From: Clostridia bacterium
GTDB taxonomy: Bacteria > Bacillota > Clostridia > Christensenellales > CAG-917
Direction of reading: 5' to 3'
Assembly (NCBI GenBank): GCA_028710495.1
Contig: JAQUST010000001.1
Location: forward strand, 93,933-154,341
DNA length: 60,409 nt
Below, piece by piece: positions 24,906 through 29,474 of the stretch. The notes below the pieces were generated by a model. It had not been told where the DNA came from, made no database searches, and worked only from the letters and a program-made list of their open reading frames with translations. The position numbers and the translations under genes are program-made. Positions within the stretch are counted from its first letter, which is position 1, and each line of letters begins with the position of its first letter.

Positions 24906-25196
24906 TGAAAAACTAAAAAATACTGCTCAAATAAAGCTGATATATTAATAAAAAATAACAATATAGTACAATTAACACAAAAAAGGTAAATAAATCTTTT
25001 ATTATTAAGCTAAAAAATTCAAGTTTTTATAACATAGACATATAGTGTTTATTATTTAGTGAATTCGCTTTTTGCATATTTATACGAAATATAATATTTC
25101 AGTTTTTTCCCAAAAAATTTAATTAGACTTTGGGAAATAAGACACTCGACACGATATGCATTTTTGTTTTATAAGATAACTCAAAAAAAATACAAT
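24906..25196. other. Gap between secD promoter and degV terminator
   Basis: About 290 bp of very AT-rich DNA without a visible gene, hairpin or repeat. Together with its flanks the gene-free region is 24848-25342. Confidence 0.5.
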
Positions 25197-25218
25197 AGCC
25201 TTGCATAAATGCAAGGCT
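25197..25218 (-). terminator. Terminator downstream of degV
   Basis: A perfect 9-bp stem AGCCTTGCA / TGCAAGGCT, loop of four; after seven bases the minus strand continues with eight T's. It lies beyond the repeat array that follows degV. Confidence 0.8.
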
Positions 25219-25255
25219 AAAATTTTCTTATAAAAACGCTCAGTTCTTTTTGATA

Positions 25256-25352
25256 TAAGATTTATCCAAACTCAATGCTTTTGATTAAGATTGAACGAAA
25301 TTTAATGCTTTTAGTTTAGATTTATCTATCTTATAGTTTTGACTAAGATTGC
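25256..25352. repeat. About 30-bp degenerate repeat overlapping the degV stop
   Basis: Related units begin near 25256, 25286, 25317 and 25344 (TAAGATT core). The last is the degV end itself; its minus-strand CAATCTTAGTCAAAA recurs as CAATCTTAATCAAAA in the unit at 25286. Confidence 0.6.
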
Positions 25353-27796: not shown

Positions 27797-27973
27797 CTAC
27801 TTATTGCTTTCTTTTTCGTTATTGAAAATTTTCTCGTCGCGTGACGCACAAGTTTGATTGCCCACAGTACAACTTGTTTTGCAGGCTGATTGACAGCTGG
27901 ATTGGCACTCACCGCATCCGATTTTTCCGTCTTTTCTTATTGAGCATTTTGAAATTGTTTGAATGTGTTTCAT
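27797..27973 (-). CDS. scfA: SCIFF ribosomal peptide precursor (six cysteines in forty-five)
   Basis: A 58-residue precursor with the diagnostic core CGECQSSCQSACKTSC followed by TVGNQTC, giving the six SCIFF cysteines. It begins MKHIQTIS, as in the family. There is one extra cysteine at residue 10, and a charged tail of about 15 residues beyond the last cysteine, longer than usual. I start at the ATG at 27973 because GGAG lies seven bases upstream; an in-frame TTG four codons earlier overlaps that site. The maturase follows directly. SCIFF peptides are nearly universal in Clostridia, and their role is unknown. Confidence 0.95.
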   Translation of the reverse strand: MKHIQTISKCSIRKDGKIGCGECQSSCQSACKTSCTVGNQTCASRDEKIFNNEKESNK

Positions 27974-28632: not shown

Positions 28633-28722
28633 ACACACCTCTCGCAGAATGATATGCTTAATGATTACGAAAAATTCATTTTTTGTAAAATAAACACTAA
28701 TTTTGTAATGTAAAAGCAAATT

Positions 28723-28780
28723 GTTGACAACTGAAATTTTGATTATACTTTATATGATAAGGCTTATATCAGTTGTCAAC
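28723..28780. promoter_or_regulatory. Promoter region flanked by a 12-bp inverted repeat
   Basis: GTTGACAACTGA (28723-28734) and TCAGTTGTCAAC (28769-28780) are perfect arms 34 bp apart. Each arm contains TTGACA in its own orientation. On the minus strand the right arm would be the -35 of the TIGR04086 promoter, with CATATAAA about 17-19 bp on. The arms could be an operator for an unknown regulator. Confidence 0.5.
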
Positions 28781-28783
28781 ATA

Positions 28784-28815
28784 TTATCCACCGTTTATCC
28801 ACAGAGTTATACACA
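28784..28815 (+). promoter_or_regulatory. Cluster of three DnaA boxes
   Basis: TTATCCACC (28784-28792), TTATCCACA (28795-28803, perfect consensus) and TTATACACA (28807-28815) lie in one orientation with 11- and 12-bp steps, about one helical turn. They sit just upstream of the TIGR04086 promoter. The rest of the gap 28633-29045 is AT-rich and includes a two-copy 25-bp repeat near 28923. Confidence 0.75.
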
Positions 28816-28997: not shown

Positions 28998-29021
28998 AAA
29001 AGCACATATAAATGTGCTTTT
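28998..29021 (-). terminator. Terminator after yajC
   Basis: A 10-bp stem AAAAGCACAT / ATGTGCTTTT with seven T's on the minus strand, 25 bp past the yajC stop. Confidence 0.85.
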
Positions 29022-29045: not shown

Positions 29046-29474
29046 TTATGACAACTTGTCGTCTTTCTTTGTTGTCGCTTTCTTTTTTGCAGAAGTTGTC
29101 TCTTCAAAAACTGAATCATTTTCTTTCTTATTTTCTTTTTCTTCTTCAATTTCAATAGGTTGAACTTCATTTGAAACTGGTTCAATTGGCTTGATAGCAT
29201 CAAGAATTACACCAACACCGTTCTTTTCTATTGTCATCAATGTCGGATTTTCTTCGGTTCCAACATTCAAAATAATTGTGTTTTCTGCTGAATTGATTGC
29301 GACAATTTTTCCAACTAATCTGCCAATTGTCATAAGTTTTGTACCAACCTGAAGATTGGTCATCATTTCTTGTTGTTGCTTTTGGCGTTTTTTTTGTGGA
29401 ATAATTGTCATAACTATCATTGCTACCAAAAAGACACCGAGTATTACGATAACCCAAATATTACTACCTGTCAT
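29046..29474 (-). CDS. yajC: Preprotein translocase accessory subunit YajC
   Basis: A small single-span membrane protein associated with SecDF. It has 142 residues: one N-terminal membrane segment (about 7-25, VIVILGVFLVAMIVMTIIP), then QKKRQKQQQEMMTNLQVG and the family domain with GKIVAINSAENTIIL. The last 45 residues form a Glu- and Lys-rich tail that is longer than usual. It lies between tgt and the TIGR04086 gene, the common order in Clostridia, and ends in its own terminator. Confidence 0.9.
   Translation of the reverse strand: MTGSNIWVIVILGVFLVAMIVMTIIPQKKRQKQQQEMMTNLQVGTKLMTIGRLVGKIVAINSAENTIILNVGTEENPTLMTIEKNGVGVILDAIKPIEPVSNEVQPIEIEEEKENKKENDSVFEETTSAKKKATTKKDDKLS

Follow-up and report, generated by a model that had tools for sequence, protein, structure and literature searches.

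A row of three DnaA boxes in a single orientation occupies part of the intergenic stretch that separates yajC from the TIGR04086/DUF3792 membrane protein gene, within the 60,409-nucleotide stretch of Clostridia DNA analysed here (the window). We consider it probably an ordinary DnaA-box cluster outside the origin, of the kind found in B. subtilis, with putative DnaA binding beside the TIGR04086 promoter. To our knowledge, non-origin DnaA clusters in Firmicutes have been known mainly from B. subtilis. Such clusters show how free DnaA and gene control are linked to the timing of replication; the window site would add a lineage-specific example.

Sequence and surroundings of the box row

The boxes TTATCCACC (28784–28792), TTATCCACA (28795–28803) and TTATACACA (28807–28815) are all read on the + strand; the first has one mismatch to the consensus TTATNCACA, while the second and third match it perfectly. 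Their starts are 11 and 12 bp apart, and the spacers between them are unequal (GT, then GAG). A preliminary description of this DNA had reported three same-orientation boxes, and we found its sequence, coordinates, orientation and spacing to be accurate. It had overlooked a weak DnaA-box-like element, TTGTCAACA (28773–28781, +), which stands in register 11 bp before the first box, as well as the inverted repeat surrounding it, the left arm of which carries a mirror-image copy of TTGTCAACA (28722–28730, −). Both copies may function as weak boxes. The dnaA–dnaN spacer of the same genome also has TTGTCAACA, ahead of GCCC and an A+T stretch, which is at most a hint that this sequence works as a box in this genome.

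The row is intergenic, in a gap of about 410 bp. On one side lie TIGR04086 (28237–28632, −), which is the candidate regulated gene, scfA for the six-cysteine SCIFF peptide GCGECQSSCQSACKTSC (27797–27973, −, start codon approximate) and scfB for the SCIFF radical SAM maturase TIGR03974 (26410–27765, −). On the other, the upstream neighbour yajC (29046–29474, −) is separated from the box region by a terminator-like stem-loop with a symmetric stem (28998–29021, scored on the + strand). As previously described, the flanking genes run in the same direction, with yajC, TIGR04086, scfA, scfB, degV and secD all on the − strand, and the boxes sit just upstream of TIGR04086. Between degV and secD, positions 25184–25266 (−) gave sub-threshold Rfam matches to isrJ (36.5 of 37 bits) and HIV_FE, most likely reflecting a low-complexity stem.

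Rarity of the tandem arrangement

Single matches to TTATNCACM occur in the window at chance level (5 found, 5.15 expected). Their tandem arrangement is beyond chance: neither a tandem pair nor a triple appeared in 150 windows simulated with an order-2 Markov model. Across its own 1.57-Mb genome, the tandem sites are the window row and one pair at C21:35257, with no other triple, and triples were present in 5 of 391 Clostridia genomes, the row's own genome counted. As a control we used the box pattern read backwards, which had no match in the own genome or in any of the 391. A scan with an approximate box matrix, drawn from general knowledge, placed the window row as the top cluster of its 228-kb contig (55.1, followed by 32.9; the best of six Markov-simulated contigs reached 41.1). 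We also sought a second copy of the 355-bp gap sequence across the own genome and found none, which ruled out a repeat or mobile element as the source of the gap. The other tandem pair of this genome, TTATACACACATTATACACA (1501–1520 of locus L001, G000:C21:35257), lies 12 bp ahead of a galactokinase-like gene.

Comparison with known DnaA-box clusters

The DnaA protein of this genome aligns over 447 residues with 8btg, a full B. subtilis-type structure, and its box-reading motif FGGRDHTTIIHA is intact, giving a canonical DNA-binding domain. The B. subtilis clusters (Okumura et al. 2012, reviewed in PMC5295017) comprise several near-consensus boxes, lie outside the origin and are mostly intergenic, as is the row described here, and the two have the consensus TTATNCACA in common. 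The row likewise packs three near-consensus boxes, the minimum for such a cluster, into a short stretch. Unlike the B. subtilis clusters, it has three strong boxes only and is not conserved in the relatives compared, all from outside the genus; its binding of DnaA and its effect on initiation are putative. Removal of six non-origin clusters from B. subtilis leads to early initiation, which is partially relieved by restoring one of them (PMC5295017). The eight regions that DnaA occupies in vivo in that species have the highest box content (PMC4447404). The datA and DARS sites of E. coli are also non-coding DnaA-box loci distant from oriC; they depend on IHF or Fis and on a fixed arrangement of boxes.

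Most economically, DnaA would bind the three strong boxes of the yajC–TIGR04086 gap cooperatively, and probably the fourth, weak one too. Binding would exert local control, by repression or activation, on a promoter reading into TIGR04086; at promoters, DnaA works as an activator or a repressor (PMC8203912). A small share of free DnaA might also be soaked up away from oriC, as in the B. subtilis clusters. The earlier proposal survives in part: the row is real, lies outside the origin and is placed where it could act on the TIGR04086 promoter, which makes a titration or control site its most plausible role; a conserved link of replication to this gene is not supported.

Inverted repeat and candidate promoter

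Next to the boxes is an inverted repeat with 16-nt arms, 94% complementary and 28 nt apart: TGTTGACAACTGAAAT on the left (28722–28737) and ATATCAGTTGTCAACA on the right (28766–28781), the latter containing the weak box at 28773. The right arm also holds a −35-like TTGACA (28774–28779, −) that could belong to the TIGR04086 promoter. Downstream of it on the − strand are TATAAA at 28754–28749, across a long spacer of 19 nt, and TATAAT at 28747–28742; a full-consensus −10 at normal distance is absent. The TTGACA counts as a candidate −35 only, because a promoter scan with spacers of 16–18 does not list it. If it is the −35 of a TIGR04086 promoter, the boxes would start 5 bp upstream of it. The site would then resemble the DnaA-regulated promoters of dnaA, sda and nrdAB (PMC8203912), with boxes beside a −35 hexamer upstream of a gene. 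Set against these, the window TTGACA is followed by a spacer outside the range of the scan, the pairing of boxes and gene is not conserved, TIGR04086 has no known replication link, and the promoter is a candidate predicted from the DNA sequence.

The repeat might instead be the putative operator of another TIGR04086 regulator, with the boxes taking part in joint control or being secondary. In favour of this, the repeat is almost perfect, its 16-nt arms enclose the candidate promoter and each contain GTTGWCAAC, and its hairpin potential is strong: on each strand it folds more stably than 199 of 200 shuffled sequences (z about −3.3). However, the exact arm is absent elsewhere in the genome, where a search returned seven sites with one mismatch, hence no visible regulon, and no Rfam family reached the gathering cut-off in a search of the box region. 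We therefore regard control by another protein as unlikely. An RNA element was rejected on the same Rfam result, the inverted repeat accounting for the hairpin.

Conservation at TIGR04086 loci

TIGR04086 was present in 48 of 60 genomes. The preliminary description had suggested a DnaA-regulated promoter linking replication to this conserved gene and proposed comparing the same gap in relatives. That comparison, in which all relatives came from outside the genus, revealed no box cluster at any of 30 TIGR04086 loci, so that a conserved link between boxes and gene is not supported and a conserved TIGR04086 control site was rejected. None of the 136 blocks of 650 bp at these loci reached the cluster threshold, the best scoring 17.8 against 40.6 for the window. 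Gene order differs as well: in many same-family relatives TIGR04086 opposes yajC and secD or scfB, whereas here they are co-directional, and the yajC–TIGR04086 gap is thus partly a lineage-specific junction. Examples of TIGR04086 inverted relative to yajC/scfB are loci L010 and L012. Judged against relatives from outside the genus, the array at this position is lineage-specific. Other lineage-specific tandem pairs in relatives, with neighbouring genes named by eye, lie ahead of a SigG-like sigma-factor gene (L093, G004:C2:145411) and between GAPDH-like and argG-like genes (L095, G008:C20:61963).

Absence of the row from the same place in relatives, together with units of near-equal length, would also fit an evolutionary accident, in which local tandem duplication of an 11–12-mer produced the boxes with neither DnaA binding nor a selected function. 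Yet at the positions that matter the units agree exactly with the DnaA consensus, and the spacers differ, one of them (GAG) recurring in relatives, in the conserved pairs linked to an amidase gene that are described below. An accidental origin of the row therefore seems rather improbable to us.

A conserved box cluster upstream of an amidase gene

Tandem box pairs were detected in 23 relatives, in 20 of which the pair lies directly upstream of an Amidase_3 gene. The best NCBIfam match of this amidase is CwlD, below cut-off in the own genome. Within 650 bp before the amidase domain, the cluster was found at 20 of 30 loci, against 2 of 90 other blocks, and it spans many families of the order (L048–L054, L057–L063, L065, L067, L071 and L073); the genome of the window row carries a weaker form of it (L137, G000:C4, 13796–13851). 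Most of these clusters are mirror-symmetric: successive boxes start at intervals of 12, 23 and 12 bp. The inverted pair at spacing 23 is unspecific to the amidase, occurring in 55 of 157 Clostridia genomes and beside dnaA in 9 of 30 loci inspected. In family f1, a PRC-barrel gene lies on the other side of the cluster, usually with radC and gltX close by. A limited literature search found no paper tying DnaA boxes to this amidase.

The diverging genes suggested that the amidase-linked cluster might be the family's oriC. This was rejected, since the skew shows no turn at the cluster in G027, G007, G014 and G019. On the contigs of these four genomes the cluster outscores any dnaA box cluster. Its distance to dnaA is 53–111 kb in G027, G007, G006 and G019, and about 4 kb in G033.

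Like the window row, the amidase-linked cluster has tandem boxes, often with a GAG spacer (TTATCCACMGAGTTATCCACA). It differs in its mirror symmetry (12-23-12), in its conservation and in standing ahead of a cwlD-like amidase gene, whereas the window array is unidirectional and in another place; because the geometry differs, we rejected the window row as a relocated copy. Of the two, the amidase-linked cluster holds more interest, and it would provide a concrete place to ask whether DnaA couples replication initiation to cell-wall cleavage. One could imagine a small, order-wide DnaA envelope regulon, in which an ancestral mirror-symmetric cluster controls the cwlD-like amidase and, its boxes being weaker here, a new strong array before TIGR04086, a gene neighbouring those for SCIFF and Sec, took over part of the control. 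We hold this to be very doubtful.

Position relative to the origin

The GC skew, computed on stretches of a fragmented assembly, stays below zero throughout the 228-kb contig (29 of 29 bins), with no turn at the row. The neighbours of the row are yajC and TIGR04086 rather than dnaA, dnaN or rpmH; in agreement with the earlier statement that none of these three is present, dnaA is on another contig (C7:2504–3847). The dnaA–dnaN spacer there forms a separate cluster of six box-like sites, with weaker boxes than those of the window row, and the skew is positive beyond it. Among same-family relatives, the minimum of cumulative skew lies no more than a few kb from dnaA in five (G027, G007, G014, G004 and G019), while G006 was uninformative. 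Within the limits of the fragmented assembly, skew and dnaA position thus place the row outside oriC, contradicting the alternative that it is simply the origin. We rejected that assignment on these grounds.

A chromosomal or ectopic second origin at the row is highly improbable: the consensus boxes in an A+T-rich gap and the weaker boxes at dnaA would suit it, but the contig has no skew turn, the flanking genes are co-directional, the skew of relatives turns at dnaA, and a regular-expression search found no GC cluster with DnaA-trio at the row, a weak argument as the same search found none at dnaA loci or known-type spacers.

Among the dnaA loci inspected (L117–L134), many family members have nearly no consensus boxes within 1.5 kb of dnaA despite a skew turn, and some have dnaN and dnaA in convergent orientation. 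An inverted pair of TTGTGCACA, spaced by 50 bp, recurs 1–2 kb from dnaA in G027 and G007.
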